This document shows, piece by piece, positions 1 through 48,615 of a stretch of DNA of 64,000 bases. The DNA comes from Phlegmacium glaucopus. Taxonomy: Eukaryota > Basidiomycota > Agaricomycetes > Agaricales > Cortinariaceae. The position numbers and the translations under genes are program-made. The first letter of the stretch is position 1, and every line of letters begins with the position of its first letter. Below the pieces are notes generated by a model that was not told where the DNA came from, did not search any database, and worked only from the letters and a program-made list of their open reading frames with translations. Location: assembly GCA_015039465.1 (NCBI GenBank), contig MU130542.1, positions 62,001-126,000 on the forward strand, written 5' to 3'.

Positions 1-3000
1 GGAGGTAGACCTGGGTAGAGTTTAGCAAAGAAACGCTGGTTTGAAGAAGAAAAAAAAGGCCTTGCTCACGGCTGGTGTCTCCAGTATAGGCTTCGTGGAA
101 GAAGCAGGCCATCTGCCTGAACAAGAGTTGAGCGTTGGTCGTGCTCTCAGTATTGGTGAGAAGACTGCTGAGGGTAAAAGTTATCAAAAATCCAGAGCAA
201 GTTTCACGGAGGCAAGAGGTAGCAAGATAATGACCGCCATAACAAATGGATGCTGTGGTAGTCAGAACTGCGTGGGGGGTATTGGGTCGCATATAGCTAA
301 GAAACAGAAGGGAAAATTTAATGCAACATATATGCGGGATGGAGTCAAAATACACACAGCCTCATGCCGGGTTGGAGGAGGACAGCTTCTAACTGGACTT
401 CAGGAAACTGGTCCTTACTTGGCACCCCTCTGTTGAAGAATCTGATGCTCTTTTGGACGTTTTCAAAGGCCGAGGCTATGGCGTTTGTCTTGGTACCTGC
501 GAGGACCCAAAGCTTTGACCCATCTTTATTGACGCAAGAAACATATGTTGCACGGCCATGACTGTCGACGTGGAAGGTCGAGAAAGCGCCTGTGGTAGCA
601 GCAAGTCCCCACCTCATCTCCAAGTCAGGGTATTCTGAGATGACTCCTTGGTTGGATGAGTTCCTGCGAAATGCAAACAAGTCAGATGCGAGTGAGGTTG
701 GAGGGTGGTCAAGGTGTGGCCTGGGAAAGTCTAGGGCATTAAGGATTTTGCCATCAGGCGAGCGGTGGCTGGTGAGGAGATGAGAAGTCGTCCCTATCCT
801 CTGTCTGGCATTTTGGTTGGCTCCGATCTTGATGGAGAAGTCTGGAAAAATGGGCATTAGGTAACTGGACATGGTCAGAATGGAAGAGCTACCATGGATT
901 GCGAAGGCCTGCATAGGCGAGGCAAGGGTCTCTAAGCCAACCTCATCAAACCCGAATGTGGGCTCAGGATATCCTGTGACTAGTAGATGGTGGCTTGCAT
1001 GGAGGTCCTGGAGCTCCTTGGCACTCCTCCTGTTGAATTCTTCTAGAGTCATGATTTTTATCATTGACCTAGATGGTTCAGCTAAGTAGAGGGGTAGACC
1101 AGACTCATGGTAATCCTTTTCAATGCGGGTGAGGAGACGCGAGATGAAAGACCTTTGCTCAGGGTGCTGGCCAGGCTTAAATTGAAGCTTGATACCAGGT
1201 TTAACTGAAGGACTTACATGAACCAAAGGTACATAGGGAACCTTTTCTCCAAAAATATCACATAGCATATGCTCATCACCATTCACCTGCTTTCGTTTCT
1301 CACAGGAGTGTAACGTCACGTCAGGTAGGTCTTCCTGGGGTGCATTAATCATGGAAAATGAGGATGGATTCCATTGCAGGATAAATAACCTCACCTGCAT
1401 CTCCGTCAAATCGACAACCTCAAACCACCTCCCTTCAACCACGACAGCTTGTCCAGGAAGTGGAGGGTTCCCCCCCTGGACAGACAAGCGTCTTATGGGG
1501 CTTTGTTTTCGCAGCTTTTTGGGAGCGTGCTTTGGACCTTTGAGAGTGGCTAGTTTGGTACCAAAGTCGCTGCTTCGTTGCCTTTTTCGTGATGGTCTGG
1601 AATGCTGAGCATCGACATCCATGGGTTCATTTTCATGGAAGGAGGGCGCTGGATATCCTTGCAGTTCGAGGTCCATAAGCTGGCCATCGTCGATAGAAGA
1701 AGGTGCTCGCAACGGTCTCGAATGCTGAGCATTGACATCCATGGGTTCATTTTCATGGAGGGAGGGCGCTGGATACTCTTGCAGTTTGAGATCCATAGGC
1801 TGGCCATCCTCTATAAAAGAAGGCGCTGGAGGTGCTGGAGATTGTGGTAAGTCCATGGGAATGGGATGGTCGTCATCATCCAGGTAAGGTACCAGGGACG
1901 GTTGCAAGTCCATGGGAATGGGATGGTCATCATCCAGGTAAGGTACTAGGGAGGATTGCAAGTCCATGGAAGGTACCCTTTTGTCTATTTGTTTCTTTAG
2001 AATGGGATAAGATGGCCAGAATAAAGTGTCTACCGATAGTATGGAACCAATTCAGGATGTCTACCTGAACTTCTTGGCGAAGCATTGGGCTGATAAATTC
2101 CAGCTGGTGCTTGAGGCGTGAAGAAGTGGAAATTTCACTGGGCCTCAGGGCCATCTGAAATAAAAGCACCCACAAACTACGCTCGACATTGACAAGGATT
2201 TGAGGCCGATCAGCTGGGAGCAGTTGCCATGCCTTGATATAGGAGTCATGGAGTGCAAATATAAGAGTTAGCTGAAACGCACCTCGAGGGGTTGGTGAGG
2301 TCGTATTCGTTGTTTATGTATCAATGTTGGAACCAGTAAAACTGCAGGGGAGATTGACAACGCAACATGCAATGGGAGTTGGAGATTCGCCACATTTCCC
2401 TTGTCTGGGAGTAGGGAGTGAAGCAGGGATATATCTCTAAAAACAGAAGATAATTAATGCCATTTTCACAAGAAAGTCAGGTTACTCACACTTTGAGCAT
2501 CCTCGCGAGATCTTCAACTGACTGTGGGTACGTTGTTCCCTGGACAGATTTAACAGACAGCTTTGAAACCTGTGAAGGGCAAATACCTGGAGCAGGGAAG
2601 ACAGGTACATCGCTGCCATCTCAAAGTTGATGAGAATTCGATGGAACTCCCGGCTTTCCTGTCGACGGAGAACTGATGCCAAGTGAACAGAAGGTAAACT
2701 TGTAGCGCTATCATGTAACGATTGGGGCTCTGGTTGAACTTTGTCAAATATATTACAGGCCTTTTGAATGGCGATGATCCAGTTGTCAAAGAAAGTATGC
2801 AATCCCTGGAAAATGGCCATGAGAGAAAGGCACCCATCGAATTCAGGTGAACTGACCTTGAAGGAAGGTGTGAGATGGTAGGATTTTTTTGTATACGCGA
2901 GAGAATTATGCAAGTGAGGGCAGAAAAAATATTGTGCTATGTCGAGGGCTCTGTAATAGAACAAATATTTGGTGACCCATCGGATGCATGGAGTGCCAGA

Positions 3001-3231
3001 TATGTCGGATTGCTCAAGAAGTTGGGAGAGGGGAAGAGGTGATTGGAGAACCTTGAGAGCCTCTAGTAAGCCAGGGTCTCCACTGAAGAGATCTTGTTCA
3101 GAACGAAGGATGACGGTCAGGAGGCCCTGAATATCAGGGCAGAATATTCTGTCATTGGTGATGGCATCTGTGAACCATGGAAAGTTTTGGAACTGCTCTA
3201 AATCCTCCTTCGATATGGTAGTTCTAGGCAT
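1..3231 (-). CDS. JmjC-like Fe(II)/2-oxoglutarate oxygenase, paralogue 1 (3' end off the window)
   Basis: Multi-exon gene starting at ATG 3231. The N-terminal module (SKEDLEQF.NFPWFTDAI) and a second helical block ending REFHRILINFEMAAMYLSSL (about 2600-2700) are shared with the genes at 40.2, 44.2 and 22.3 kb. An exon near 2000-2175 (ERSLWVLLFQ) is also shared. The long exon 345-1967 holds a disordered region with repeated PMD..QxxPAPS units, a basic stretch (RKRQR) and the JmjC-like core: MRWGLAATTG, then FHVDSHG (the HxD iron ligands, near position 570), then KLWVLAG. After an intron of about 60 nt, 1-285 encodes YMRPNTPHAV, which supplies the distal His, so all three ligands are present. 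The family includes histone demethylases and hydroxylases; the substrate here is unknown. A CACGTG box lies 75 bp before the ATG, inside a conserved 50-bp motif. Left edge truncated. Confidence 0.72.
1602..1960 (-). repeat. In-frame internal repeats of JmjC paralogue 1
   Basis: Two copies of a 120-bp (40-codon) unit start at about 1602 and 1722 and encode ENEPMDV.AQHSRP plus PAPS blocks. Next to them a shorter unit encoding MDLQ.SLVPYLDDD..PIP is repeated. Copies are in frame and nearly identical, so expansion is recent. The region is acidic and disordered. Confidence 0.8.
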
Positions 3232-3300
3232 GTCTTTTGGAGGAGGGAAAGATGCGGATAAAGGTGGTATAATTGGGAGTTGGAATCGGATTTGAAGAAA

Positions 3301-3350
3301 GTAATCACGTGGATGGTTGGAGTTTCGAATTGCATGTCTAGGGTTAAGGT
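3301..3350 (-). promoter_or_regulatory. Conserved 50-bp telobox/E-box motif, copy A
   Basis: On the minus strand it reads CCTTAACCCTAGACATGCAA, then a short linker, then TCCAACCATCCACGTGATTA. It sits in the sense direction 70-120 bp before the ATG of JmjC paralogue 1. Four more copies lie at 6110, 18331, 26905 and 37476. Confidence 0.65.
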
Positions 3351-3665
3351 TCTGTGTGGATAGGATCCATTCAGCCGCTAACAAACTTGAAATTCCAGCC
3401 AAATGCATCCTCCGCCCAATGCCTTTAAAACTCAAGCAGAAAAGCATGGCAATTTTGGCCCCTGGTCCATCTGTAGAGCCACGTGCGCCGCCGTTCTCCT
3501 TTTATGTCAGGTCCTTGCGCACCTTAGCTTAGTGGAAACAAATGCAGTTTAAAGATAAATACTATACAAAAGCACATATGTATAACCTCTATAATCAAAT
3601 TTTATCCAAGAACTAGCAGACAGCGTTAAATTCACTGTTTCAGAAAGTACCAAATGCTGCAATAC

Positions 3666-5712
3666 TTAATGCCTCTTCCCACTTGGTAGACCCATGGTCA
3701 GATCAACCCCAATTTCCTTAAAATAAGACGACAACCCCCGAACCGTATTTAATGCATCGCTATGGGCCCTAATTGCAGCTACATTTTCGGCTACAGACAG
3801 CTGTGGATAAATTGATTTCCTCCACTTGGCATAGGCCTGGTAGACCCTCTGTTAGCCTGGTGAATGCAAGCGAAGCTGAATAAAACTTACATCCGAAAGA
3901 TGTCCACCCTCCGTAATTATCTTGTGAAACAAGCCTTTGTCAAATGATACAAGCTTGATCACAGATATCAAGCCAGGCATGTCTGAAATGCCAGAGAATG
4001 TTTTAATCAGATGAAGTAGCTCCCTATGATAGTCCGGGGCCTATATTTTCCCAAGTTGTGAAATAGAAAAGCTGTACAAGAGAAGGGCTTACTTGTGGAT
4101 GAATTCTTAGCCCATCTTGGGCAGCGAGGTTCAGGTCTACTGTAGCTGGGCGTACTATCTGTGACGGCTGCCTTGGTTAGAAAGAAGCAACTTAAACCAA
4201 AACCATAGGCAAAGGAGGCATACTTTCTTCCCTTTCAAGAGCTGTGGCCTGTTGGGTGGCGGCTGGATGATCTCAGAGGTCTTCCTCTTCTTTTGAGATG
4301 CTGTACCACCGCCTTCTTCATCCTAGTCAATAGCCACGCCATGAGCAATGTGAAGCTCAGCATGAATTAAAGGCACTGCACCTTGCTGGAGGGCCTCTTT
4401 CTTACAGGAAGATTTGAATTCCCAGACTTCCCAGCTTCTGGAGCTTGCGGACTGGTATCTCTTATGTGGGCCTGGGACTGGTGAGTCATATCTGGGTGAG
4501 GAGCAGCGCTTAGAGTCAACTTACCAGATCATTCGAAGGCCCTGATTCTGCAGGCGAATTCAGCCTCTTTCTGGCAAGGTTCTTTGGGTAAAAAATGCGG
4601 AAGTCAAGGGCAGTATGCAGAAACCTAGGCGTATAAACTTACGCCCACCGTTCCAGATTTTCGGATAGCATTGGAAGCCCCCATCTTGGCATTCGCAGCA
4701 AGTCGATTGCCCTAAATTCATCTTAGCCCTAAAACGAGACTGTGGTTGGAGATGCCAACCTTAACATTTTGTGGGCGCTTCTTAGGGGAAATAGTAAGGG
4801 GAGCCTTCTGAAAAAGGGAGGAAATAGCATCCATAGCCCCTGTGCTTTTGCTCTGAGAGCGGGTTTGAATTTTGCCTCCATCTTCAGGCTCCGGGGTTTG
4901 TGTTGTTATCTCTTTTTTGGGACGGCCTCGTTTTGGCTTTGTAGCCATTTTGATGGGATCTTCAGGAGATTCAAATCCATCTGCTTTCATCTGGAGTATG
5001 AGGCCCTCAATCCATCTCCTGGCTGCATGGGGGGCATCGGTCCGATCCCTTGCACGTATGTGATCGAATAAAACGTATGTGAAGACTCGTCTAGCAGCTT
5101 CTGCAAGAACTGCCTCATGGTCAGCAGTCCATTCATACAGGGCTAATTTTGGGTAAATTGGCATTTTCGGAAGGAGGGGGGTTAACCCATACCTCTTTTC
5201 CACCTGAATCCATCTTCAAATGTTGAATATACCTGGGCAGCTATTGCGGGCTCTCTTTCCCTCAACATTTTGGAGTTGGGTATGCCATGTATGAGTCTGA
5301 GCACCCATCGTTTCACGAATGGGTCATCTTTTGGGTCACCCAGATCGCATGCTCCACTAAGGATTTTCAGGCGCATCTGGTCCAGAAAATGGATGTTCTT
5401 CATATGACGTGGAACTTCTGAAGCACCAGCTGGCAACCTGATGACTTCAGCCAATGAGGATAAGTGATGGAGATCAAGGAGCATGAAGATGGAGGTGTAG
5501 AATGCTGGATAAAAGCGGCTCTGGCCAGCAGTGGAGACTTTGAGGCAAATAGGCCCGTCTGCGGATGCTCTTTCTAGCCTGCATACCCACTTGGAGGTCT
5601 CAGGAAGGGAGCGATAGTTAGAAGGCTGCGGGAAATTTTCAGACCACCAGCTATCTTCTAGAGCTCCTGTTGAATCCCCTTTGCCTTCAATTGACTCCAT
5701 GGAGTAAGGCAA
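3666..5712 (-). CDS. AT-hook protein, multi-exon, function unknown
   Basis: Starts at ATG 5712 (or the in-frame ATG near 5700) and ends at TAA 3668-3666. The N-terminal exon, of about 160 codons, matches no family I know. The next exon ends in a basic tract with an AT-hook core (KPKRGRPKKE, near 4930-4960), which suggests binding to the minor groove of AT-rich DNA. I joined smaller exons by splice sites and frame: 4224-4322 (33 codons, KKRK basic cluster), 4093-4158 (22 codons), 3891-4040 (50 codons) and 3666-3848 (60 codons plus stop). Exons at about 4440-4700 are less certain. A CACGTG box lies at 5774-5779, 62 bp before the ATG. Likely nuclear; no enzyme motif seen. Confidence 0.65.
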
Positions 5713-8922: not shown

Positions 8923-11900
8923 TCACATTTTCTCATAGAGTTTCTTGCGGAAAGCTGGAGCATTGAGCTGACTGCGCCTTTGAGCAGGGGATTCCTTCTC
9001 TGTTGAAATGCCCTTTATTCGATAGTATAATGCATTAACCACAAATTCCAGGTTTCCAGCATGGGTTTTCCAAATGGTGACTTTCTTCCGCTCACGCATA
9101 GAAGCGGGCAGGCACTGCAATTTCGAAAAAATGAGGTCTAGATCGTGGTTGAGGTTTTCAATTTGCTCCTCCGTTTGATTGTCCAAGATATGATGATAGC
9201 TGAAAAGGTAGTAAGTGGGGTGATCGGTAAAGGGCTGCAGAGGAGAGCCTTCCAGTTCATCTGGCGTTGGAAAGAAAATCTTCCTTCTGTTCCCAAAGGT
9301 CTCTCTGGGTTTAATCTTCTCCGTTTCCTGAATTAACCCATCCTGCGTTGGAAGTACCGAGATGATGTTCCCGTACATTTTCTGGATGCTCTTCAGAGTC
9401 CAGACGTCCATGGCTTCCTTCAAATTGCCTGGAACTTCTACCGCCTTGGAGGAAAACTGGCCAGCTAAAAGAAGCCATATCTGATGGGTGAAAGACATGA
9501 ATATAGGTGAAGAATCCCGGTGCTTGAGTGAGCCAGATGGCATATTAATTGGAGTTTTCAGAAATTGATCAGGCACTGTTTGTATAAGTTCTATGAGGCG
9601 CGATTGCGCCACCATTTCACCCCAGGGATAATCCTTCGATACACGTTCATGAGATAGTTTTAGCGGGGGTGGTACTTTTTCCTTCGGGGCATCAGGTTTG
9701 AAGGGCGTTTTGTAAGCTTTTACCAGACTTTTGGGATCCTCTCCAGGTACGGCGGGGAGTTTCATCCTCTTTAGATCTAGGTCATGAAGAAAGAAAGCCC
9801 CCCACCCCATCATGACTTCCTCAAATCGCAATTCGCGTAGGACCTGAGCGACGACTACATCCTTGATGATTGGCGTAACCAGAGAATGTCGGAGGAGATG
9901 CACAATAATGAGCGACATTAGCCGATAATTGGGCAAGCGGGCATTGAAGCAGCTTTCATGAAGCAGCAGAAGTTCTGTAAACCTTCTTTCCAAAAACTTG
10001 AAGAAGGTGGAGGATCTAATCCAAAGTATAGGGTCTGAAAGGAGCCAGGTATTAGCCTATCGTAGCGAGTGGTCAGCTGCAATAATTTCCTCCTAAAATA
10101 TATTCAGCACTTTCCTCTTCTACTGCACTTGGTAAATGTCTCAGGATAGTCCGAGCTAATCCACGGATTTCATCTCTCACTCCGAATGACCTGGTTGATC
10201 CTGAGGAAAACAGCTCCATCCAGCTCTTGCATGCTCCTGTAAACTTCTTAGAGCGATCGACCGCATCTTTGTCTCCGCAGAGATATTCGCTAGTTCCTGG
10301 GTTTCTGACCAATTCAAACGCCAGGCAGTAACTGATGCGGCTGATTAGATGCGTTTCTTGCTTTCGTTTCATCCGCATCTCCCCCTTTATACCTCCATAC
10401 AATGCAAGTGTGTTGAGGTGGTGAGTAACACCCTTCTTCATACCCATGCTGTCAAATGACTCACGCAGACGTGGAAGGCGCCACAGGCCCACCAGTGGAT
10501 TTTTATGCCTGCTATGAAACGATACTCCCATTATCAAGATACAGCTCGCCTCGATCTCGGTCCAGCATTCGGTCCCAATCAAGATCGGAAAACATCTCTC
10601 AAACGATCTTGAAATCAGCGGAATATGATCGTCTGGAATCCTCCTCTGGGACGCATTGCTTTGTGGCAAGCTTCATCCCTCGACCATCTGCTACAATAAA
10701 GCAGGACCCGAAACGAGATAGCAAACCAGGGTCGTCTTTTATGGAGAGCTGTATTTCCTCCATCAGACACCCCACCGTCGGCTCGCAAATAACCATATGC
10801 TTTTGCTTTCTATCTCCAGAGCGATTGTGAAGCTCTGCAAGGTTTGGCGGTATGTACTCGGAGAATCCTACCGCATCCTCAAACGCTCTACTGCAAGATG
10901 GAATGGCCACTCGATCAAACCAAAGTTCTTGAACAGCCGATGGAATAAGGGTGGAATATTGACCGTTCTTCTGATTTTTCCGCATCATCCTTGGGAAGAA
11001 GATGTAAAAATTGATCCTTCTTTCACCTTCTCCACAGAATCCAAGCCTGAGGTGAGGGATCCGGCTGAGCTGTACATCTTGTACAAGGCGAGTCTTTGGG
11101 TCATCTAACTCCCCCTCATCTCTGGGTGGAGAGACAAGGTTGACATAGACAGAGTTATGGATAGAAAATCCTGCACGTTGCTCCCAGGATGGGGTTAAAC
11201 AGAGTTCAAAGGAGCGCACTTTGAAATTTTTGAGGCTTGTGACCCATATCAGGCTGTCCAGGTCAACTGAGATATCTATGTCAGGGCTAGGAATGCTGAC
11301 GTGGTCCCTTTCCAAGTCAAGGATCAGGTATTTTGCTGGATTTTGCAAAGTTCCTTTTTCCCTCTCTTTTCCCACCAGAAAAACACGCCTGCTTTCCTTA
11401 GTACCAGAGCGTGGGCCTGCTTCATCGATAAAAGATTGTGCAGAAAGCACCAAGCTCCTTCCATCCGTCGAATTCTGGGGCTTGCAGTCATCGTTTTGAG
11501 GAGAAGTTGCAAAAGGATCGATGTAAATGTTTGCATCCTCCTCAGTATCGTCCAAAGGGAGAGTCCGAAAAGAGGTAGGATGCGACCTAAAGCCTTGGTC
11601 CCTCCAAAACTTCCAACAATCCTGTAACACCTGGACGCCGTCTTTTCCAAACACCCAAATTCTTCGATCTGCGGGCGGTGTATTTTGGGATTGGATGGGG
11701 GCAGACCAGTAATCGTCATACCCTACATCGAATGCTACAGGAGTTTGCTGCGAATCTACGCCTCCATCATCCTCAGGAGTCGAAGTAGCTATTTTGGGAT
11801 GGAAGACGGCAGGCTCGCCTTGCTCCGATGTGGTGTCGGCGTCAGTTCTTTCCGATGCATCTACCTCTTCATCTTCCATAAGATCACTTGGAATGCAGTC

Positions 11901-14440
11901 TCCTGAATGCGTCTCGCATGCTTTACAAGACTCCAGGAAATCCAAGAGCCTCACTAAGGAATAACGAACCCAGCTAAAGCTCATAAATCCTATCTCGAGG
12001 TCATCGATAGTTCCTTGGATTGCCCCAGTCCACCAACCTTGACATTCTTTGCGCAAGAGCCTCCAACTTTGCCCATAGGTGTTGCACCGGTTCAGCGTCT
12101 TCAAGAATATCTGCTGAAGCATAAATCGGTGGCAATTAAAATTCGGGACCATGGACCTGCCCCTTCCATCTTCCTCCCATTTCCACTCCCCAGAAATCAT
12201 CAGATGAAACAACCAGGCTGATTTCTGCCCAAAATCTAATCCTGCCTTATATTTGCCAAGCTTAGATTGATTTATTTGAGCATAGGCACGCGTACCTGCA
12301 TCCAGCTTCGGAGGATTATAGGGATGGATGATACAACATAATCCCAGCCAAAGAAGCATGCGACTGCAGTCCATATCTCCTGAAACCATTCAGGGGTATC
12401 AAGTATCTGGCCCTCATCGCTGGAGCCTAAAAGAAGAGCCTTCCCCTGTCCATAATCAAGAACCAGAAGCACCGGCCTTTCATAGCCAGGGCATTTTTCC
12501 AGCAGCAAAACAACTGGCATTTTTGGGGCGGAGCACTCTGGGAGCAAAAGATTGGCCTTGAGCAAGATTTCCGGAGACCCGTGGACGATACTTTCCAAAG
12601 ATCGCATGTCGAGGTAATAACAGAGAGGGCTAGCACCTCCCAAGGTCTCCCTGTTTTCAAGCCAGTCCGCTAGGATATTAAAGTCTAGAATAGCCGGGTC
12701 GACTGGGCAAGTGGTGTTAAACTTTATGAGCTTCTCCCATGCTCTTCCCCAGAACCATGGGTCCCCCAGGATGCGAGCTGCCATCATCTGTCAGGCTGCC
12801 ATCTGTGAAAATATGCCGAACGACGTAATCACCCTTTGAATACACTTCGGTGCCAGGAAATGCGGAGGCTTGGATAGGTAGGCAATTGTCATCTGGGTCC
12901 ATTGCATCCTTGTCCGATTCCGTCGGGTTAAAAGATCCATCCATCTCACCAAATGAGTATGTAGAAGATGTCCTGGACTGCATCCAAGAGATTCAGTCAA
13001 GAGCTCAAATATCAGGGGCCATGAAGGTACAGACATGTCTCTTTCTTTTGACGCGTCCCCCCAGCATCTTGGAAGCCTGGCGTTTTCAGCTGCAATGCTT
13101 TAGAAAGTTAATAGGGCTAAAACCCACCCTTCTTTTTTTAGGGGCGAATGGCAGGCTAGAGTCCTTCCATGATTGTCATCGAATGGGGAATCAACGTAGT
13201 TGGTATGTACACACCCTAAAAAGTGGCGATGAACTATAATTTTCCAACATAACACCTTCCAGTTCAGGAGGGGGTGAACCCTTTCTCGTATGTTATAAGC
13301 CAGCAATCTTGATTGGAAAAATGTAGCTACCAGCCCGAGAGATGATTGGCGGGAGTGTTGCATGCTGGGAGGTGGTGAGCCCTGGATTATAGCGATCAGG
13401 CTCCGAGATTTTCATGGCACAAAAATGATCGGAAAAATGTACTTACCAAGCCAAGAGATGATTGGCGGGAGCATTGCATATTTTGTAAAACTTGCACACT
13501 GTGAGGCGGTGAGCCCTGGGATTATAACGCTCAGGCTCCGAGAGTTTCACAGTAGGAAATTGATCTGAAAATTTCACCTACCAGGCCAAGAGATGATTGG
13601 TGGGAGTGTTGCACGCTGGGAGGTGGTGAGCCCTGGATTATAGCGATCAGGCTGCAAGAATTTCACGGCACAAAACTGATTGGAAAAATGTACTTACCAA
13701 GCCAAGAGATGATTGGCGGGAGCATTGCATATCCTGTAAAACTTGCACACTGGGAGGCGGTGAGCCCTGGAATTATAACAATTGATCAGGCTCCGACAAT
13801 AATTTCAAAACAGGAAAAAAAATTACTAGGCCAAGCGACGGTTCATACTGAGCATGTAATTGCACTTCGTCACTTTGTAAATTAGGAGGTGGAGAGCCCT
13901 AGGTCCAGAAGATTAAACAGCCATCTCTCCAAAGAAGGCATAGACCCAACTAGACCCAGAGAAGACTGCGGGGATTTCAAGTTATCAAGGGCTCTGTGAG
14001 GCCCGGAACTCTGAGATAAAGCAGTTAGAATTCAGAGATGCAGAGAAAAAGTAGGATACCTCGGTACTATGCAGAGATATATTGGAGGCTATTTCTAACG
14101 AATTTTGGCTGCGAGAAAGCCAAAGGTGAATATCCTCCCGAGAAAGCATAGCTGGCCCGCAAATCTGCAAGAGGAATGATTGGATAAGGCGGTCAATTCC
14201 ATTTGTTTATGCCTGTAAGTTCGACCCTGAACTTTTTCTTTTTGCGAAACTAACACCATGGCAGCTAGATTTGAAATGCTGTGGGACAGCAAATCGGCCA
14301 AAGAAGTCCAGAGCTTCACCATTTTTCGTGCTAGTAAGTTGCCACCTAGTATAATAATGCCCAATCAGGCCTCTAAACAGCAACAGATGAGAGTTTGACA
14401 GTTGCCCCAGGAAGCTGGTAAGGCAGCTACTACATTTCAT
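8923..14440 (-). CDS. Very large multi-exon protein of unknown function with tandem duplicated exons
   Basis: One long minus-strand gene appears to run from about 14,440 to 8923. Splice sites and frame link the cassette exons at 13.26-14.16 kb to SRTSSTYSFGEMDG (about 12.9 kb), to ARILGDPWFWGRAWEKLI (12.78 kb), and through an intron after RSWMQ to AGLDFGQKSAWLF (12.2 kb). It then continues through a long exon to 10.6 kb and further exons to 8923. An alternative is two genes, split near 10.07 kb. No catalytic motif or known domain was recognised. An acidic, disordered stretch (EDEEVDASERTDADTTSE) lies near 11.85 kb. The first exon and start are uncertain; ATG 14440 would put it 49 bp from the divergent BAH-PHD gene. 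Confidence 0.55.
13256..14164 (-). repeat. Tandem array of duplicated in-frame cassette exons
   Basis: On the minus strand, successive exon-like blocks bounded by AG and GT are 14164-14060 (105 nt), 14010-13951 (60), 13898-13827 (72), 13766-13698 (69), 13632-13582 (51), 13515-13447 (69), 13381-13331 (51) and 13280-13256 (25). All but the last are multiples of three, with phase-0 junctions. Introns are 50-66 nt. The repeated blocks encode GSPPPSVQHSHQSSLGL or a version six codons longer; older copies end QSSLGL or PSLGL. The 69/51 pair is duplicated with a 251-bp period. Confidence 0.8.
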
Positions 14441-14489
14441 CTTCTTTTGGCTAAATGGCGCACATAGCTATCTATTTACACACCGGGAT

Positions 14490-15473
14490 ATGAGCCGCCA
14501 GAAGCCCCAGGATTTTGATATATACTGGAAAGAGATGGTGGCCGAAATAAAGACCCTGCCTTCCCAGCCTGATGCACTGGTGAAGGTTCGGTGGTTTTGG
14601 TCAAAAGAGGACATCCAGCAACTCATTAAACCCCTGAAAGTGGACAAAAAACTGACGCAGTACGTCTTCCACCCTTCCGTCTCTCCTGAAACTAATGCTA
14701 TATGTAGAATATTGGGTGCAGCAAGCAGTAATGAACTGTTCCCAGGAGAAGAATTAGTCATCAACTCCTCTGATGCGATTGAATGTCAGTCCAATATTTT
14801 TTATGCTAGCCATGCTGACAGCTTCACGCAGGCAATGTAGACATAGTTCATTTGACTGAATCGGTGAATCAGGAGCCAGTAGTTGATTATTTCTTTCGCC
14901 TTGCATGGGATGAGAGTCTTCAGACCATGCATGTAAGGGTGTGAATTGCACTTCTTCATGAATTCTACTAACCTCCAGTCTGTTTTGCGACAGGGACATT
15001 CGCCCTTCGGCTGTGGCAGGGTTAAATGCCATCAGTTATGGGATCCTGAAAAAGAAGAGCAAAGATACTGCTACCATTGTCAAAAGTGGTATCATTCATC
15101 CTGTCTTGCCATCTATAAACTATACACCCAAACAAAGACAGCGCAACGCTCTGCCAAGGAAATGGGTTTAAAACAGGGGGAAGTGCCCCAAATTCTCCTA
15201 GATGCTGCCTTTCAGCCCACTGCCCGGGGTGGAATGCGCCACTTTATCGCAGGAAACATCAGAATTGTCACCAAAGCCAGAGAATTGGTGGAAAATGAAG
15301 ACGAACGTGAAGGTTTCGCCGAAGGAATGGCCTGGAGCAATGATGAATGGGCTTCTTCGTTGGAAAGTTATTTTGGGATCCTAGAAGAGAATCGTGAAAA
15401 TTTTCAAGAGGAGCAGCTGGTGGTAAGCGGACAAGACATCTATCATTGCGCGGGGTGTAATAAATTTATATAG
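14490..15473 (+). CDS. BAH-PHD chromatin reader
   Basis: Starts at ATG 14490. An intron of about 47 nt (donor GTCAGT near 14786) joins the first two exons, and a second ends at about 14979. The first half fits a BAH domain: VRWFWSKEDI, then NELFPGEELVINSSDAIECN and VDIVHL. The second half has a PHD-type zinc finger, CGRVKCHQLW followed by YCYHCQKWYHSSCL. BAH-PHD proteins read modified or unmodified histone tails. The C-terminus, with a last CAGC pair, is not assigned. It is divergent from the large gene on the minus strand, and about 300 bp ahead of a SET gene on the same strand. The role in histone binding is from the family; the partners are unknown. Confidence 0.72.
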
Positions 15474-18381: not shown

Positions 18382-18419
18382 CAGATGATTGTTGACCACC
18401 AAGGAACGAAAAGATATAC

Positions 18420-32100: not shown

Positions 32101-32639
32101 TGATTTTTCTCTCGGGTCTCTCTCTACCTGGGTTGTGGAGAAGGAAGATGCAGATGTTGTGGTTTTGCTCCAAGGGCAAGCGCCTCAAACGTCAGATATT
32201 TGCTTGGTTAGTAATCCTTTCTCATATCCAGCCTATCATCTTGTACTAAAGTTGCTCAAGCATTTTGAACGTGCTTTGGGTGGCCTCTTCAAAGTAATTT
32301 TCAACCCGGAACACAGAGGATATCGTGGGATAGTTGCGCTGGCACCGGGTCTGACGACGCCTGCCTCTCTTGCACAATTTGAGCAGCTGACAATAAGGTA
32401 GGTATGTTGTCTGCTGGAGCTAAATTTATCTGATTTTTTTTCCTAGGCAAAGTCTTTCATGGATCATGGGACCAAGCCATTCCGGATTTAATCCAGGATC
32501 CATGGTCGACCTTCTTCCTGATCTTTTCTTTCATCTGATGGTGCGGAGAGAGGGCGACGGCATCAGAGACCTAGTAGATAAGGTGTTCAATCGACCTTGG
32601 GCGTTGGGTAATACTGACGTTGTATTGGTGGAATTTTGA
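29182..32639 (+). CDS. Cysteine-rich multi-exon protein, function unknown
   Basis: Starts at ATG 29182 (MDHADISAITLVYSDHPS), 56 bp after a CACGTG at 29121, and ends at TGA 32637-32639. Three cysteine-rich blocks stand out. CTGCQRPAPTIKC with CLVR and WLCPAHS lies near 30.25-30.38 kb. PCPTCKVNW with CHGCG lies near 31.3-31.4 kb. CSSCHVFGDVRSC with CTGRKGGRC and WYCPQHS lies near 31.65-31.8 kb. The first and third share CxxC..C..C..CTG..C..CPxH and look like duplicated zinc fingers, possibly PHD-related. The region between and the C-terminal third, with SMVDLLPDLFFHLMVRREGD, are unassigned. Introns are short; the last splits ACAATAAG from GCAAAGTC at about 32,399-32,447. No catalytic motif was seen. 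Confidence 0.6.
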
Positions 32640-36600: not shown

Positions 36601-37077
36601 TCTTTCCCTTCTGTTGCTCTTTTGTGATGGCCTAGTTTGTACTATAGTAAATATGCAAGAGATCAAGAGGACTCGGTCCGTCTCTTAGTCGAAGCAGGGG
36701 ATTTCGGGTGATTAAAGTATAGATAGCACTTCGTTACTCCTAGAAGCTACCTGTGCTTTTCTTTACAGTAATGGAGTTAGAACTCTGTTTAGAAGTCCTT
36801 GGAGAATGAAGATTGGGGGGAAGTATTCAACTGGTTTAATACAGTACAGAAGTACAGCATTTATACATAAAATGGCACAGTGCCACAGAAATATGGTAGG
36901 TCCCAAGAATAATGAAAGTTATCTCCATCCATTGTGGTTGCTGCGTGTCTCACACTTTTCCATACTTAGGCGACCTTTGTTGCTTGCACTTTACATTCCA
37001 ATGGGCCGCTATAGGCGTTATGTGCTTGGGATAAAGCAAATGAAGGAACATGAATCATCGTCTTCTACTTTGGAGGG

Positions 37078-37310
37078 ATCACGCGTGATTATGTCCTACT
37101 TTGGAAATGTAACGCGTGACTAGCTCCTGCTTTGGAACATCATGCGTGATTATGTCCTACTTTGGAAACGTAACGCGTGACTAGCTCCTGCTTTGGAACA
37201 TCACGCGTGATTATGTCCTACTTTGGAAACGTAACGCGTGACTAGCTCCTGCTTTGGAAACATCACGCGTGATTATGTCCTACTTTGGAAGCATCACGCG
37301 TGATGTCCTA
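37078..37310. repeat. 61-bp tandem repeat built on ACGCGTGA half-units
   Basis: About three and a half copies of a 61-bp unit made of two related halves: ATCACGCGTGATTATGTCCT with ACTTTGGAAA, and GTAACGCGTGACTAGCTCCT with GCTTTGGAA. Each half centres on the palindrome ACGCGT. Similar ACGCGTGAT and ACACGTGA half-units recur near 55,800. Confidence 0.85.
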
Positions 37311-37528: not shown

Positions 37529-37617
37529 CGCCTGTAGGGCAACTGGTCCATTTGTAGAGCTGCTTTAGACAGTTTTACTGCATATTTGTATGCTTCGTTC
37601 ACTTCGGATCCGGAAAT

Positions 37618-40191: not shown

Positions 40192-43100
40192 ATGCCTCTT
40201 GGATCGAAGGATACTTTTGACCAATTTAGAAACTTTCCATGGTTTACTGACGCCATATTTGCAGCCGATCAGCCCTCGCAGCCTAACCTGAAGAACCTTC
40301 TGCTCTTTATCATGCGCTGCGAGCAAGACATCTTTTCGGGGGAAGAAACGTGCACCGATGCCCTGGAAATTTTGGAATCCCAACGTCCGATTTCCCAACT
40401 CATCCAGGAGGCCGACTTGCCTCGTGCCTCTTTCATTTGGGCCACAAATTACCTGATGTATTACAGGATCTTGGACGTTGCTCAGCTCCTCTCGTCTAAC
40501 CAAGCAATCAAGCCCCACCTACATACCAGGTGCAATCCCCCGGATTTTTCGCTAACGGTAAGCCCAATTTGATTTAGTGTGCCATCAGCCTAGTTAGGTC
40601 CCTTGACAACAGGGTTGGAATGCTTTTCTGGGGAACTGGACCAACATCGTGCGGCATGCCTCCTGTCTTCTCTCCCAAGTCACGCCGGAGCCCTTGTCTG
40701 AGGATGGTTCCTATTTGACGTTGCCAGCATTCCGCCTGTCATCCGTTCTTCGTCGCTTGGATCGCCTGGAATTCCATAGGATCTTGATCAACTTTGAGCT
40801 AGCGGCGATGCACCTGTCCTCCCTACTCCAGGTAAGCTCCCCATGGTTTATTTCATTCTTTTTGTCCAACCTTACATCGCAGGGAAACGAATATCCTGAC
40901 ACGCTGGAGAAACTTGCAGCCTCACTCAATCTGTCAAGACTCTTTTGTTCAGTTTTTGGGAACCGATATTGATTCGTTGGCATTTCTAGCAATCTATGCG
41001 AGCTTCAGTCCATCTTGTCTTCCAATGGGAACGTGGCGCATTTGCAGCTTCCGTTGCACACTGCTTTGTCAATCTCTCCCATCGTCCTTTTGATCCCAAC
41101 CTCCATCCACAAAGCGCGGATAAAACACCACGAACCACTTGAGGTGAATCTTGTCAGCAGCTTCCCTAAATCCCTCTAATTTTCTCCAGATTTGGCAAGG
41201 TCTCCGATCTGACAGACCAAGCGCGCTTGTCAGCATCGAGCGTCGTCTGTGGTCCCTTCTGTTCGATATAGCGACTTCGACCCGCGTCTGTACAACTTCT
41301 TGCTTGAAGGACGAAATGAAGGCCGCCATATCAACTCTTGATCAGCAGATTGATGCGGACGCTGTAGCTTGGTTTCGCCCACCAGGTAACTGCTCACTTT
41401 ATTTGAATAATCTTCCCTCATACATCGCAAGACCTAGAAGCAACAGATAGCAACCTTCCTGAAGGCGATCACCCTATGGAAGATCAGCAGGAAGAAGGGC
41501 TAAACCCCTGTACTTCCCTAGAAGGCGATCGCCCTATGGATGATCTACAGGAGCTATCGCCAGCCCCCTCCCCCAGAGATGACCTCCGCATGGACGACCT
41601 TGGCAAACAAGAACAGCAATCCCCTCACCCTCCCCTGGATGATGATGATAGCATGGACCTCGATGCTGGGGACGAAGCCCACCCTATTCCACCAAGGCCC
41701 AAACGAAAGCGAATGCATGATGGCCAAACCGCTCCGCCGCAAAGTTCAAACTCGAAACCTACCCCAAAGAGGCCGCGAAATCAGAGTCCAATGCGCAGAG
41801 ATCGGGAGAGAAATACGGTCCAGCCTGGCCAGAGCGTCAAGGTTGCAGGAAGGTGGTTTGAAGCCGTCGATTTGGCGGCCATGAATGTATGGCTCCCTTG
41901 TTGTTAAATATACCTCACTTTGACCCGCTTTATATCGCAGGAGGAGGCGCTGGAAATATCGTTGATTAGCTGTCAGACCAAGGGAAGCAAGATGGCCGGG
42001 AAAGAGAAGATGCTCCCTGATATTGAGGGGACTAAGGTGTCCTATACGCCCTTGGTTCACGTGAGTATGCCATACAAGTCCTCCTTTCTCCCATAATTCA
42101 CCCCTGCATAGCTCCAAGACCAAGGCAAATTCATTGCCTCCCTCATTTCTCACGTTGAAAGAGACTACGATTCAAACACCGGCTTGCCCCTCTACTTGGC
42201 TTACCCTTCACGATCCATGATAAAGATCATGAGCCAGGAGGAGTTTGCCGCCCAGAGCACTGCTGAAATACAGGCCTCTCATGCAGGCCATCATCTCTTG
42301 GTCACTGGCGGCCCTGCTGCAGCTTTTGGATTTGACGAGGTAGGAATGGAGACCCTGGCCTCTCCCAGTCAGGTCTTCGCCATTCACGGTGCGATGTCCA
42401 CGGCTTGATCCAATGCCCCAGCTAACCGTTTATGCCGGCACAGACTCCTCTGTCAGGGTCCAAGGAGGCAACGAAAACGTACGACAACGGACTGGCACTA
42501 CCGCCCACCTCTTGGACAGCCACAACTCGCCCAAGGCCGTTGGCAAGATTCTGAATGCCCTAGACTTCCCCCGTCCACATTTCGACGATCCCTCGCCCCT
42601 CCTCGCTTCGGACGTGTTTTCATTCCGTCGCAACGCATCTCGCCAAGATTTTGCAGAAGATTACCCTGACGCCCATATGCGCTGGGGGCTAGCCGCCACT
42701 TCGGATGCCTGCTCTTCTTTTCACATCGACAGCCACGGCCTTGCCACATATATCTCTTGTGTGAATGAAGGCGGGTCTAAGCTCTGGGTTCTTGTAGGTG
42801 CAAAGGATAATGTGGGGGTCTCAGCCTTCACAAATGCTAAAAATGCATTCGATTTTCATTCGGACAACGCCCTCAAACCAGACAAATTTCCCGATCTCCA
42901 ATTTGAAGCCCTCTTGCTAAGGCCTGGAATGACGCTGTGAGTATTTCTACTTTGCCGTTTTTTTTGAGAGCTTCACACCCTATTTGTCCAGCTACATGCG
43001 GCCAAACACCCCCCATGCAGTAGTGACCCCGACGGCGGCAATATGTCACGGAGGTCATTATCTCACTACCTCGTCCCTCCGCCAAACATGCCATGGGTAT

Positions 43101-43809
43101 TTGATGACTTTTACGCTGAGCACTCTTCTCACCAACGCAGAGCTCACCTCGAAAGTGCAGCTTCTCTTCCGACAGATGGCATTTTTCTTCTGGGATGCAT
43201 TCACGCACAGCGCTCGTGGGTGTTCCTTTTATTTTTTATGCATTTGGCTCCAATGTAAAGCTGCCAGGTCCACCCCCAACAACCCGTGCCCATCTCCCAG
43301 ACGTCGCTACTTTTGAAGGGGTCCTTGACCTCTTTTCTTTCTGCAATATCCTTGAACTGTCCAACGTCACTCATCCAGGTAGCTACGGCCTTCCTGGTCT
43401 GGGGGTCTCCGAAAGATTGGAGATGATTCGGGGCCACGCAGCTTCTCGGGCCATAGTTGAATGGGTCATCACCCACTATGAATTCGCCCAGAGCAAAGAT
43501 CTTGGAAAATTTTACTACGACTACCTGGCCTATCAAACGCGATCTCTGGTTAATTCCAAGCGCTTCGCTGAAAAGAATGGAATTTTCAGCTCCAATGGAA
43601 CTCCCATTGCTACCAACCTGGAAAAGCTGATCGGAAAGAGCTTTGAGCCTACTCATCCATTTTGGGACAGCTGGAACAAGTACTGCGACGAGGAGCAGTT
43701 GGATTTTGCATGGCCTTCGTCTGCCGAACGTCCCACGATCAGACTCCGGGACCTGCCTCTAGCCAGTAAGCTTCGACTCCTAAACCCTGCTGTCTATCCA
43801 GCTACCTGA
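40192..43809 (+). CDS. JmjC-like Fe(II)/2-oxoglutarate oxygenase, paralogue 2
   Basis: Starts at ATG 40192 (MPLGSKDTFDQFRNFPWFTD) and ends at the stop before 43,810. Block order is the same as paralogue 1: N-terminal module, LEFHRILINFELAAMHL near 40.77 kb, and IERRLWSLLFDIA near 41.25 kb. A disordered part follows with PMDDLQE/PAPS repeats and KRKRM (41.45-41.8 kb), then VQPGQSVKVAGRWFE. The JmjC-like core begins near 42.4 kb. MRWGLAATSD, FHIDSHG (HxD) and KLWVLVG precede an intron, then YMRPNTPHAVV gives the distal His. All iron ligands are present, so it is likely active; the substrate is unknown. The C-terminal helical region (LPDVATFEGVLDLFSF, 43.3 kb) is shared with paralogues 3 and 4. 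It is the most complete paralogue and lies just after the TET/JBP gene. Confidence 0.78.
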
Positions 43810-44155
43810 TGCCTTTGACAGTCGAGAATAGCATGGTATGTCAGGGGATGACCTTGGATGATCTGGAGTGGGAGAAAAATTCTATAGCAAGCTCATGAAT
43901 CACGATAGCCAGTTGCTATAACTTTGAGTGTAAATATCGTGCAGATGTTTATAATGGGTTGTCTAAAAAATTTTGAAAGTTGGTGATGTTGCCTTCAGCA
44001 GAGCTTATGGGCTGTACATCTGAGAAAGGATTAGGTAAACCAGCGCCTCTGACGTCAGCGTACGATTGGACACGTGGTATACATGATTATGTAATGTACT
44101 CAGGCAAAAAAAAGGAAGATTGTGCCATTCCATTTACGGTTTTTGGAACACACGC
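43810..44155. promoter_or_regulatory. Spacer with CRE-like and E-box palindromes before JmjC paralogue 3
   Basis: Contains TGACGTCA at 44050-44057 and CACGTG at 44071-44076, 80-106 bp before ATG 44156. No gene seen. Confidence 0.4.
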
Positions 44156-47100
44156 ATGTCCTCCAAGTTTGCAAGGTCAAGCTCGAAGATTTTAGCAGAA
44201 ATATCCTGGAATACGGATGTTGTCATCGGGGGTGCGCACTTGGAGGATCAGGATTTAACGGTGCATGTATGAATAGTCTCACTGCTGCCACTAGTGGTGA
44301 TGTCGCCTTTGTAGAAATTTGAAGAGAGGCTGATCGAAGCAGAAAACGAACTAGCAGGCACATCCAGAGACGTCGTTGCTGCACAGAGGGTGATGAAAAT
44401 TCGACCGACAGATGGGCAGTCTATGGCGCCTATCGCCGACATTGATGTCGCCAAGGCAGTCACTCGCGTCCTGGGGTATAGAATCTTGGACGTCTGCCAC
44501 TGGGCAAAACTGCACCATTCTACGCCGGCAGGATCTCGGAGCATACCCCCAAGTCAAGCGAGGGTGCAAAAGCTGAAAGCGGTGGTGAGCCTCTCTTGCA
44601 ACCTCTAGATCATTCAGCATAATTCAACGCGACAGGATCTCCCAAAAATGGCTGACTGGCCATCTGTGGTGGCATCTGCATCAACTTTACTTGGTTCCAT
44701 CGCATCTCCTAACCCAGCCATCGAAATTATTGAAAACCCTACAGTCTCTATTTTCCACTCGATATTGAACCACGAAAAATCGAAGAGATACCATAAGCTT
44801 CTGCTCAATTTCGACCTTGCAGCCCTCCATCTCAGCATTCATTACGACGTTTGTTCCTGTTTTTTTTTTTTTTTTTTCAGCGCCTGACGACCAACCCTTG
44901 TAGGGCTCCTATGATCTGACAGGTACACTTTTAGAAGAGGCCAAAAATCGGTAACTTTCTCGCCACCTTTAAAACCCGAGCTTTTGATGCTGACAATGGG
45001 CTGCCAGACTTCACATAAAGGCCTTGAATTCCGTCCGGTTCCCATTGAACTTGGCTCTCGCAGTCTCTCCATTAGTCCTTCTGCTTGACCGAAACCTGTG
45101 GCAGTCAAAAGCCAGCTATGGGCTTCTCCTGGAGGTACGTATTTACCTCGTACTCTATGTGCTTTCTAAACTTAAAGGTTCAAGCTTCTTCAAGTGTTCG
45201 CGGGTGGGAAGCCCCCAATTCTCCTCCAAGCTGAACATGAGCTATGGAAAGCGGTTGTTGACATTGCCAGAGGGCGCATGCACACGCTGCCTCGCGTACA
45301 AAACACATTGCAAACCATCCTTGGACTCCTCGAGCAATCCGTCGCCAGCACTTGTCCTGCATGGTTTTCAGGTATGCTGTCCTTCCCTCTGTGCACGCCC
45401 TTTTCATATCCCCTGTTTGTATCCCCAGGTCAAATCTACGGTGAGGAGCCCCCAACGCTGCTTTAACTGCCCTAATCTATTTTTGAAAATAGCTCCTGCC
45501 CTCCCTCCAAACCCCCCTACAGCTGCAGACCCCCAGAGTGGTCACACGTCCAGCTCCCCTACTTCTCCTCAGCAAGATCCAGCCGTAGAGCTCCCACTGG
45601 ATTTTTCTATGATCACCGATCCACCCATCAACTCATCAAGGTCTTCCTCACACCCGTGCCCAACGGAAGAAGAAGGAGGAGGAGACAAAGGGGAAGGCGG
45701 CGGGAAGGGCGGCTGTGATGCAGGCCAACCTGGTGGGAGCGAAAAGGGAGTCGACAACGACCATGACATGGGCGAGCCACCTACACCGTTGCCCCTGGTC
45801 TTCTGCGCAGGAGACAAAGGCGACAAAGGCGACGCAGGTGACGGTGGCGATGCAAGCAATGGCAGGCCTAGACGCGGCGAAAAAGAGCTCGACGACGCTT
45901 ACGATGCAAGCAGCGACGGCGACGATGTCATGAGCCAGTCACCTCCACCCCCTCCCTTGGTTGTCTACACAAGTGATGGAAGTGTCCGAGGAAATCCAGG
46001 CGATACAGGTGATGACCAGCCTGGGGTAAGGGAAGAAGAGCTCGAGAATGTTGACGGCGGTAGCAACGGTGACATGGACCATGCACCTCAATCCAAGTAC
46101 CTGGTACCCTACAGAGGGAGCGAAGAAGACGAAGAAGACGAAGAAGACGAAGAAGACGGAGAAGGCGGAGAAGGCGGAGAAGGTGGAGAAGACGGAGAAG
46201 GCGGAGAAGACGGAGAAGACGGAGAAGACGAAGAGGACGAAGAAGGCGAAGCAGACGAAGGAGGGGGGAGCTTGAAGGAAAAGAACCAGGACTACGGCCA
46301 TGCGGGCGATAGCAGTCCTAGGGGAAGTGAGAAAGAACCCGACAACACTGACGACAATAGCAGCGACAACAGCGGCGACGGTGACGAAGACGGCCAATCG
46401 CCGCCACCTTTGCAGAGGGCCAGGTACAAGGGAAAGAAGCCACGCCGCTCTGAACCTGTGGTTTCCAGAAGAGCCAGGCAGCCAAGTAGAAAAAAGCCAA
46501 AACAAATGCATCAGAGGCAAAGTGCCCGCTCGAAACCTAGGGCTGACTCTCCCCCTCGTTCCTCCACCCTGAACGTTGCATATGCAAGGCCACATTACGT
46601 GAGGCCGGACGTGGTAGTGCGGGTCGTGCCACACCAACCTCCGGTGAGTCAATCGCCCTTGGAGTTCTCTAACTTATACCAAGGCGAATTTTAGCCTCAT
46701 TCGATTGATGCACTGCCTCGACTCGCTTTGCCCCAAGGATTCCTGGTATCTCGTAATTTTATCTCTGCTATCCAACCCATGTCAACTGGCTTTTTTTCCC
46801 ACCTTAGAAAGCCCACCCCTCTCACGAGCTTGAGCTATCTGGACCTTTCGAGCAGAAGACAAAATATCTACCCAGCTTCCATGTACGTTCCCTTTTTATT
46901 TTACCCTGATAACCTCACAGAAGAGGCCATATCAAGAACCAAGCTCAACTCGATGCTCTTTATGAAATATCCGCGTCAAGATCACGCTCCACTCTCATTT
47001 GCTTTGCCCACCACAGCCAATTTAATCCCCTTCTAGATTTCTGCTCCACAATGCACCTTGTCCTTACCAACTGCCCTTTCCCCACGGCGCTATTTGATCC

Positions 47101-48615
47101 GTGCACGCTAGACGAGATCTTTGGGTCTACCGCACTCCCTCTCATCGGTCAGTTTTATTTATATATTTACAAAATGCATGGCGTTTACGGGCGCTACCCA
47201 ACATTAGATGGCACGCGAGACCCCGCCGACGCCCGTGGAAATCTTGGACAGGGGACTATTCAAATGCTCTTGCAAAGTAGCCCCAACCCTCTTGCCACAA
47301 AGCGGATCCCAAGGCCTATACCTGATTGTCGCCCTCCGCCGTCCCTCTCGATTGACCGCAAGGCATGGGACAGCACCATCCGAAAATCATACGCCCCAAA
47401 GGCGGCCACATTTCCCCAGCGATACACTAGTTGGGCATTTGCATCCACCCGGCATTTTTTCGGAGACTGGACCATGGATGGCCAGGGTTTCACGACATAT
47501 CTGAATGTAACTACAGGGAGTGTCTGGGTAGTTGTTGCACGACCCAAGGTGCCAGCTCCGTTGGTAACTTCTTTCGATCCAGTTGGTTCCAACTCGACTT
47601 TGTGGGAGTTTGAAGGGGTTTTACTGCAGGCTGGATCTCAAATGTTCTATCTTTTCCTTTTATTTTTCCTCCAAACACAACAGCTGAATTGTCGCTCATC
47701 AGGATTATTCAACCTGAAACACCCTACAGATTCCTAACTTTGGACCACTTGATCATTAAAGGAGGGGGATTCTATCACATGTCGACCATAATGCAATCAT
47801 GCATTGGTGCTATGAAAAGTTTTGTCTATGGAACCTCCCTCTGCGATCCAGGTCATTTCCAAGCATCACGGACTATGCTGGGGCGAATTTTAATGCACCT
47901 CTTCCAAGAAATATATGAAGGAAAAATCTTGGACCAAGTTGGTGAGTTATAGCCAGAATTCTATAGGCCCAAGCTTTAATCTCCTGCACCTCACAGCCAT
48001 GCCTCCCCATCCTCATTCGTCCCTCCTTGAAACGTTTGAAGGTATTCTTTCCATATTGACCCTGGGCAACTATGCCCAATTGTCCAACTGTCTTCATCCT
48101 GACACATACAGCAATGATGGGGTAGATCCTGTTGAGCGCCTTTTCCTGATTCACGTCAGGAAAAAATCAAAAAAGCTCATCTCATACCTCAACTCCAGCC
48201 TGGAGATCATTTCCCCCTGTAATGAAGCCCTCACCCTCCTCCACCTGTCCCAATCCTATCAACTCCAACAAGCTTACGCCCTTGAGGCCTGCTTCAAGCA
48301 GGCTGTTTCATCTGGGCTAAAGTCGCCCATCGCTGGCCTCACAGAGATGTCCCTCCATGCGCAATTAAAGGCGTCTCTTGGAGATGACTTCTCCAAAAAC
48401 CCTACCCCCCAACAAGACACTGAGCCCAGCTTCTATTGGGGTGAGTTGGACTACAGGGTCCGGCGCTATGCACAGGGTTTACCCTCTGACTACGGTGAGC
48501 CAGCATTTTACCTGTATGAATTGTTGCTAAGAGGTGGGTTAGAAACAGAGGAGCAGCTAGGGCCGGAGGATGTTGAATGGATGGAAAGTGGGGAGATGAT
48601 ACATGTGGAATAGAC
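44156..48615 (+). CDS. JmjC-like protein, paralogue 3 (all iron ligands lost)
   Basis: Starts at ATG 44156 (MSSKFARSSSKILAEISWNT). An intron after EDQDLT leads to KFEERLIEAENELAG. Shared blocks are YRILDV, SKRYHKLLLNFDLAALHLS, NLALAVSPLVLLLDR and EHELWKAVVDIARG. A long acidic, disordered insert with Glu/Asp/Gly runs (45.5-46.4 kb) is followed by a basic stretch with KKPRRSEP and SRKKPKQ. In the JmjC core the HxD position reads GDWTMDG, and the distal site reads PETPYRF with Tyr for His. All three iron ligands are therefore gone, while flanking structure (TTYLNVTTGSVWVVVA) is kept. It is probably a pseudo-enzyme with a binding role. The C-terminal helical block (SLLETFEGILSILTL) is intact and open to the stop at about 48,613. 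Confidence 0.72.
46110..46265 (+). repeat. Degenerate (GAAGAC/GGAGAAGGC)n repeat in coding sequence
   Basis: About 150 bp of 6- to 9-bp units coding EDEEDEE and GEGGEGGE runs inside JmjC paralogue 3. Length is likely variable between strains. Confidence 0.85.

Follow-up and report, generated by a model that had tools for sequence, protein, structure and literature searches.

A recurring cluster of chromatin-modifier genes around an orphan core protein in Phlegmacium glaucopus

Fungal DNA transposons, including KDZ, Plavaka and other elements, are described as carriers of TET/JBP genes (Kojima 2025, PMC12730594), and the same source reports that the 'PE type' of mushroom TET/JBP is hardly reachable by sequence. 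Here we describe an island of ~54 kb in the mushroom Phlegmacium (Cortinarius) glaucopus (Cortinariaceae), most of which lies in the window, a stretch of 64,000 nucleotides (bases 62001-126000 of the 510,156-base contig C186). The island shares with those transposons a multi-copy, TET/JBP-like mushroom dioxygenase, its TET-like protein being similarly remote in sequence to the 'PE type', but the transposons of PMC12730594 are presented as transposase or Helitron type, whereas the island has many chromatin genes around an orphan core and no transposase that we could find; by term search, the main text of that paper does not name Ulp1, JmjC, sirtuin or PHD, and names SET only for transposons of other eukaryotes. 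Element-encoded anti-silencing is described for VANDAL elements of Arabidopsis and their VANC proteins (PMC10398659, PMC5735166), which resemble the island in the logic we propose for it, with an element's own factors undoing its silencing; these are plant elements, however, with a sequence-specific anti-silencing protein, and the openings of their abstracts mention no catalytic chromatin set. Large repeats with JmjC genes, or of up to 50 kb beside Plavaka, are described for Amoebidium and its giant viruses (PMC11244446), although there with a KDM4-like JmjC and viral genes, or with tyrosine recombinases, none of which was seen in the island. Starships (PMC12134995; PMC13066641 for Tremella) are likewise large multi-gene fungal islands, but are characterized by a tyrosine-recombinase captain and defined ends, neither of which was found here in the scanned window proteins and self-alignments.

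Anti-silencing genes in mobile elements are already known singly, and what is new here is the gene set as a recurring unit; we found no account of such a unit in searches of open-licence literature (the coverage did not extend to subscription papers), a possibility that the preliminary description of this DNA had raised. To our knowledge, elements that fight silencing use one or a few factors. P. glaucopus is ectomycorrhizal, and the genome searched comprised 60.5 Mb in 259 contigs. Genes were predicted by a purpose-written finder whose training set was the window itself, so exon ends are approximate, and the resulting proteins were scanned against Pfam.

Five gene families recur together in three lineages

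The island holds four JmjC-like genes, a TET/JBP-like gene, two SET genes, a sirtuin, a BAH-PHD gene, an AT-hook gene, a Ulp1 gene and two large orphans. The genes, with window positions and strand, are as follows.

1..3408 (-), JmjA-left, JmjC-like, with intact HxD, K and H; it makes up the inner portion of the left inverted arm and extends leftward beyond the window to about C186:61381
3666..4671 (-), unkE, a small protein with homologues on C29 and C200
4718..5700 (-), unkD, AT-hook protein with GRPKK; homologues on C29, C135, C208 and C200
7443..8365 (-), the module sirtuin; Pfam SIR2 at 7446-8351, E 1.4e-23, 84.2 bits (cut-off 24)
8923..12944 (-), the orphan core protein, read as one gene (1225-residue model)
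14258..15473 (+), BAH-PHD reader-like protein; BAH E 0.0029, PHD E 0.0037; start and end picked by eye
15797..16752 (+), SET1; Pfam SET at 16069-16749, E 5.5e-8; closest solved proteins SUV420H2 and EHMT2
19681..21140 (+), Ulp1/C48 protease; Pfam E 2.3e-22
22105..26421 (+), JmjB, JmjC-like; HxD lost (NxS)
27831..28950 (+), SET2, Suv4-20-like (E 3.7e-9 to SUV420H2), with one splice junction set by hand
29182..32639 (+), PHDx, a large Cys-rich protein of 890 residues with no Pfam match; partial homologues on C29 and C76
38110..39613 (+), TET/JBP-like dioxygenase, outside the reach of Pfam Tet_JBP
40192..43809 (+), JmjA-right, JmjC-like, in the right inverted arm; HxD, K and H intact
44156..48613 (+), Jmj4, JmjC-like, outermost gene of the right arm; neighbouring models joined as one gene; His of HxD lost

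A whole-genome search with the core protein identified four substantial loci (C186, C29, C135 and C208) and one fragment on C130, the protein being 1.2-1.4k residues long across loci, and BAH-PHD was found at the same four loci and as one fragment on C26. At all four substantial loci the module sirtuin, Ulp1, BAH-PHD and unkD lie no more than 10 kb from the core, and unkD, which was searched for in the fetched loci rather than genome-wide, adjoins all four cores and occurs on C200 as well. Remnants of the module sirtuin and Ulp1 were present on C62. The copies fall into three lineages, C186/C200, C29/C76 and C135/C208/C62, to all of which the core, sirtuin, Ulp1, BAH-PHD and unkD families are common. 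Since residue identity between the lineages is only ~20-60%, and their genes stand in different orders and on different strands, the linkage has outlasted both divergence and rearrangement. We regard the five families as a multi-gene unit because C29, C135 and C208 each have them together in diverged form, while C62, C76 and C200 hold fragments of the wider set. Two of the fragments are close copies: that on C76 (JmjB2-Ulp1-PHDx) has 93% DNA identity to C29, and that on C200 (sirtuin end-unkD-unkE-JmjA) is 91-95% identical to the window. JmjC-like genes accompany the five families on C186 and C29 (C76, C200 and C62 carry pieces of them), TET-like genes do so on the same two contigs, and SET genes were found with the five on C186 alone. 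Of the contigs with other copies or remnants, C208 has 70 kb, C135 104 kb, C29 111 kb and C62 881 kb; N gaps on C29 and C62 may conceal genes, and the content of C135 and C208 was judged within the 24-26 kb fetched from each.

The module sirtuins make up 5 of the 11 SIR2 loci of the genome. When 5 core, 5 BAH-PHD, 11 SIR2 and 7 Ulp1 loci (the last being relatives of this query, not all Ulp1 genes) were placed at random, one core locus had BAH-PHD, SIR2 and Ulp1 as neighbours in a single trial of 400,000, and no trial produced more. The genome has all three partners at four of five core loci, a count that falls to three should C135 and C208 be haplotypes of one locus. The dense clustering that had been described from the window is thus beyond chance, and rather than being scattered as single copies within the P. 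glaucopus genome, five of its families recur together.

Domains, active-site residues and constraint

The assignments in the preliminary description stood, with differing strength. The four JmjC-like genes are mutually related by BLAST, and two of them, JmjA-left and JmjA-right, have the complete HxD...K...H set of a KDM2/KDM7-like JmjC demethylase; JmjB lacks both HxD ligands and Jmj4 lacks the His, so neither has that active site. The Pfam JmjC match (42413-43809, E 0.0065) scored under the cut-off, as did BAH and PHD, but motifs and relatives back all three. The best plausible matches of a JmjA profile to PDB sequences were weak (KDM7, E 0.0057; KDM2A, E ~0.1). Eight JmjA relatives were found, two in P. 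glaucopus and six in Infundibulicybe gibba (28-32%), four of the latter forming two pairs on contigs of equal length, presumably one contig per pair, and HxD and the distal H are kept in all eight.

Pfam Tet_JBP has 13 matches in the genome, none of them on C186, and the TET-like protein has no match among PDB sequences. Its HxD, PG, H and R nevertheless align in register with seven Tet_JBP stretches of the genome in a profile alignment (E 0.001 for one pair, with a probability of only 21%), which gives modest support to the TET/JBP assignment, and by motif its active-site residues appear intact. For SET2, re-choosing one splice junction by hand changed the Pfam E-value from 0.0023 in the first model to 4.4e-8, and it is this hand-spliced model that has the SUV420H2 match and fits a Suv4-20 methyltransferase (a SET domain nearest to SUV420H1/H2, with NHxC and post-SET Cys). 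SET1 has a SET domain and lies near both SUV420H2 (E 8e-5) and EHMT2 (several matches near 6e-4); of the two proteins called Suv4-20-like, SET2 clearly is so and SET1 may be. The sirtuin and the Ulp1 protease were borne out by their Pfam matches, the SIR2 domain scoring above its cut-off. Among the best 120 of 298 sirtuin relatives, nearly all metagenomic, identities cluster at ~63-70%, 53-59% and 38-42% with few exceptions, and generic sirtuins start near 35-38%. GRPKK in unkD we take to be an AT-hook motif, in keeping with the earlier reading of this protein. The two large proteins left without assignment correspond to the core and PHDx, and, in keeping with the earlier remark that no ordinary metabolic gene lies between, no metabolic family was among the Pfam matches of the window proteins.

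The core reads as a single gene of at least 1225 residues rather than three genes. Among 5.8 billion proteins it had nine matches: its own record (BYT27DRAFT_7226128), one in Psilocybe cyanescens (56%) and seven metagenomic (51-64%). This search works through short words in common with the first 500 residues and may overlook distant relatives; as far as it reaches, the distribution of the core appears patchy. Core members have no Pfam family in common and no credible match among PDB sequences; the conserved blocks VDLDSLIWV, VADGRGMKLATKQ and YGGIKAE are partly retained in the most distant copy. In a tree built from 12 core rows two groups had support, one joining C29 to a pair of metagenome rows and the other made up of C135 and C208, but there was no settled order around the window protein and that of Psilocybe. 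Scans of IMG/VR with two short peptide patterns each found no relative of the core or of JmjA.

Close copies show constraint on coding sequence. Ten of 13 dN/dS comparisons were readable (three were out of frame or gapped and were dropped), all with small counts of changes, and in some raw rows there were in-frame stops that represent introns or decay. Eight values were 0.34-0.53 and the other two 0.15 and 0.79. Between C135 and C208 these were 0.50 and 0.35 for the core, 0.34 for the sirtuin and 0.34 for unkD; between C186 and C200, 0.48 for the sirtuin and 0.36 for unkD; between C29 and C76, 0.53 and 0.79 for Ulp1; and between C186 and C29, 0.15 and 0.46 for the TET-like gene.

Architecture and surroundings of the island

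Self-alignment of C186:1-156000 placed the island at C186:56.9-110.6 kb, of which 48.6 kb are inside the window. It begins 5 kb left of the window and so extends past the 48-kb stretch of the preliminary description. Both ends are formed by inverted arms, and two further features stand out in the window.

Window 1-3214 (inverted), the part within the window of the left inverted arm (C186:56,946-65,214), which is 58-63% identical to the right arm
37065..37304 (+), upstream of the TET-like gene, a composite motif (CTACTTTGGAA...CACGCGTGAT) arrayed in tandem
40203..48607 (+), right inverted arm (C186:102,203-110,607), partner of C186:65214-56946
49479..55665 (~6.2 kb, no strand assigned), Plavaka (CACTA-like) DNA transposon carrying a Transposase_21-like gene, with inverted repeats of 26 bp at its termini and a duplicated CAC (3 bp)

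Each 8.3-kb arm consists of two JmjC-like genes with their 3' ends outward, and the module genes lie in between. The homology halts at the JmjC coding ends, and for this reason the arms are not classical terminal repeats. A second island at C186:0.6-51.3 kb also has outward JmjC genes at both ends and encloses JmjA, JmjB and another TET-like gene; its inverted arms (C186:0.6-13.5 and 44.9-51.3 kb) are alike over ~3 kb, mostly at 96-98.6% with other segments at 78-90%, and are interrupted by what we judged by eye to be a LINE-type insertion. Over the 3.6 kb of its TET-like region, and over 0.8 kb in its JmjB, the DNA is 98-99% identical to C29. As C29 has the whole core set between the matching pieces, the second island looks like a version that lost this set, and it may represent a deletion variant of the island on C29.

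The transposon at 49479-55665 is presumably a Plavaka, a name that we base on the Transposase_21-like match (Pfam E 6e-4, under the cut-off) and the terminus; it carries a companion gene on the opposite strand. It lies 1 kb from the right end of the island, which its repeats and CAC duplication exclude, and its proteins had no match in the other fetched module loci; on both counts it is unlikely to have moved the island. The idea that the island sits inside this Plavaka is largely refuted by the element's own termini. No telomere repeat was visible by eye at the start of C186. No mating-type gene was found on this contig, the matches to STE3 being on C127, C144 and C240 and those to homeodomain genes on C238, C144 and C84, so a mating-type-linked locus, which had been suggested, is not supported.

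The island (C186:57001-111000) has 20 copies of CACGTGA against 3.1 expected, compared with 2 against 2.2 in C186:126-156 kb and 0 against 2.0 at eight other TET loci. Four copies lie 57-224 bp upstream of the predicted starts of unkD, the sirtuin, PHDx and the TET-like gene. On C29 and C135 much of the excess sits in short repeats. The composite motif of the tandem array follows the pattern CTACTTTGGAA-CATC-CRCGTGAT; it has a single match at 5772-5796 (-), just upstream of unkD, that is present in the C200 copy too, and no match at up to 6 mismatches in the C29, C135, C208 and C62 loci. At 35243-35829, in the interval from PHDx to the TET-like gene, a 153-bp unit recurs in tandem about four times with near identity and reads open as a protein-like frame. 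Palindrome-like repeats around TGCATGTGATTGTTCAGAACAATCACGTGCAT are dispersed beside the module at C135:36-42 kb and C208:50-59 kb.

Competing explanations and significance

We favour the explanation that the island is a co-inherited module whose core set has multiplied in the genome, most likely a selfish element managing its own chromatin, and give it a probability of roughly 45%. We infer the activities, the targets and the role of the core protein as follows. JmjA would strip repressive histone methylation, the TET-like enzyme would oxidise methylated DNA (methylcytosine) and Ulp1 would take SUMO off silencing factors, while the sirtuin and SET proteins would write the element's own marks; the BAH-PHD and AT-hook proteins might recruit or hold the complex on the element's DNA, with the orphan core protein as central organiser or mobilising factor. 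A bolder version, which we consider doubtful, is that this is a new class of giant fungal mobile element, in which the core would be the mobiliser, the cargo at its fullest would be an anti-silencing machine (demethylase, deacetylase, methyltransferases, deSUMOylase, DNA dioxygenase and readers), and the five-gene heart would be kept together as one complex on its own chromatin.

Several observations count against a selfish module. No recognisable transposase or recombinase encloses the island in Pfam scans of the window proteins (not every open frame was scanned), and self-alignments of C186 showed no terminal inverted repeat, target-site duplication or empty site around it; mobility is therefore inferred, and of the selfish multi-gene system proposed in the preliminary description the multi-gene unit stands, with transfer still putative. 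The arms look like gene-pair duplications rather than transposon termini, and the outer ends of the second island's arms have no typical terminus either. Two of the four JmjC proteins in the window have no intact HxD pair, and the core has no family match and failed in structure prediction (pLDDT 32.5). JmjC and TET-like queries had no match in the fetched parts of C135 and C208, and SET1 and SET2 queries had none in any other fetched module locus; a genome-wide Pfam SET search gave one match on C186, and those on C62, C130 and C26 are far from module pieces. These missing SET, JmjC and TET matches lower our confidence in the module. Finally, C135 and C208 match over a 10.7-kb block (96%) and further pieces, mostly at 88-97%, that are collinear rightward, with left flanks unmatched; they could be two haplotypes of one locus, and the independent copies would then be fewer than the contigs.

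As the analysis demonstrated neither ends nor a mover nor polymorphism for the island, nearly as good an explanation is an immobile host cluster of cooperating chromatin regulators, segmentally duplicated in a transposon-rich, fast-rearranging region and kept linked by co-regulation or co-adaptation, and we rate this as quite possible. It would account for close copies that are fragmentary with ragged breakpoints (the C200 piece runs from mid-sirtuin to mid-JmjA) and for a gene set that varies between lineages; LINE-type genes (by eye) and the Plavaka are in the region, purifying selection fits host use, and CACGTGA enrichment in the island and not in 30 kb outside it could mean shared regulation. 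Against it, the same five families occur in three deeply diverged versions in one genome, relatives are few and patchy among named genomes within the reach of a word-based search, partial copies are decaying, and much of the CACGTGA excess on C29 and C135 falls within short repeats. An accessory (B-like) chromosome, or a block near a centromere or telomere, with gene content serving its own transmission is an improbable alternative: a contig end and transposon genes are close to the island, the small contigs C29, C208 and C135 hold other copies, and accessory chromosomes are described in a basidiomycete (PMC13066641), but C186 itself has 510 kb, C62 with its remnant has 881 kb, and the start of C186 showed no telomere repeat by eye. 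Carriage of the genes by one of the large transposons already known (Plavaka, KDZ or Starship) we think very improbable, even though a Plavaka sits 1 kb off the right end and mushrooms have elements of the Plavaka and KDZ kinds with TET genes (PMC12730594), since the repeats and CAC of this Plavaka enclose 49479-55665 only, its proteins are unmatched at the other fetched module loci, and no KDZ or tyrosine-recombinase family was found in the scanned window proteins (short exons and some open frames went unscanned). JmjC genes are reported as plentiful in endogenised giant viruses of Amoebidium (PMC11244446), yet a remnant of such a virus is hardly credible here given intron-rich gene models, no viral family in Pfam scans of window proteins, and the empty IMG/VR scans for the core and JmjA. 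Least credible is a chance pile-up of unrelated chromatin genes. JmjC-like matches do occur on nine further contigs, seven of them with no known core gene or module fragment (single related matches are at C145:352.7-353.9, C128:401, C125:534, C220:152.7, C92:1.9, C72:20 and C113:59 kb), but the same partners recur, and the co-occurrence counts for the core, sirtuin, Ulp1 and BAH-PHD refute it.

If the selfish-module explanation is true, a single unit, whose heart recurs in diverged versions in one genome, combines readers with enzymes likely to erase histone methylation, acetylation, SUMO and DNA methylation. It would be a natural toolkit for studying how heterochromatin is overcome by selfish DNA, and fungal islands without a class would gain a further member, one built around an orphan core protein. 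Even if this is a host cluster, linkage kept through rearrangement predicts a physical complex of the encoded proteins, which is testable.

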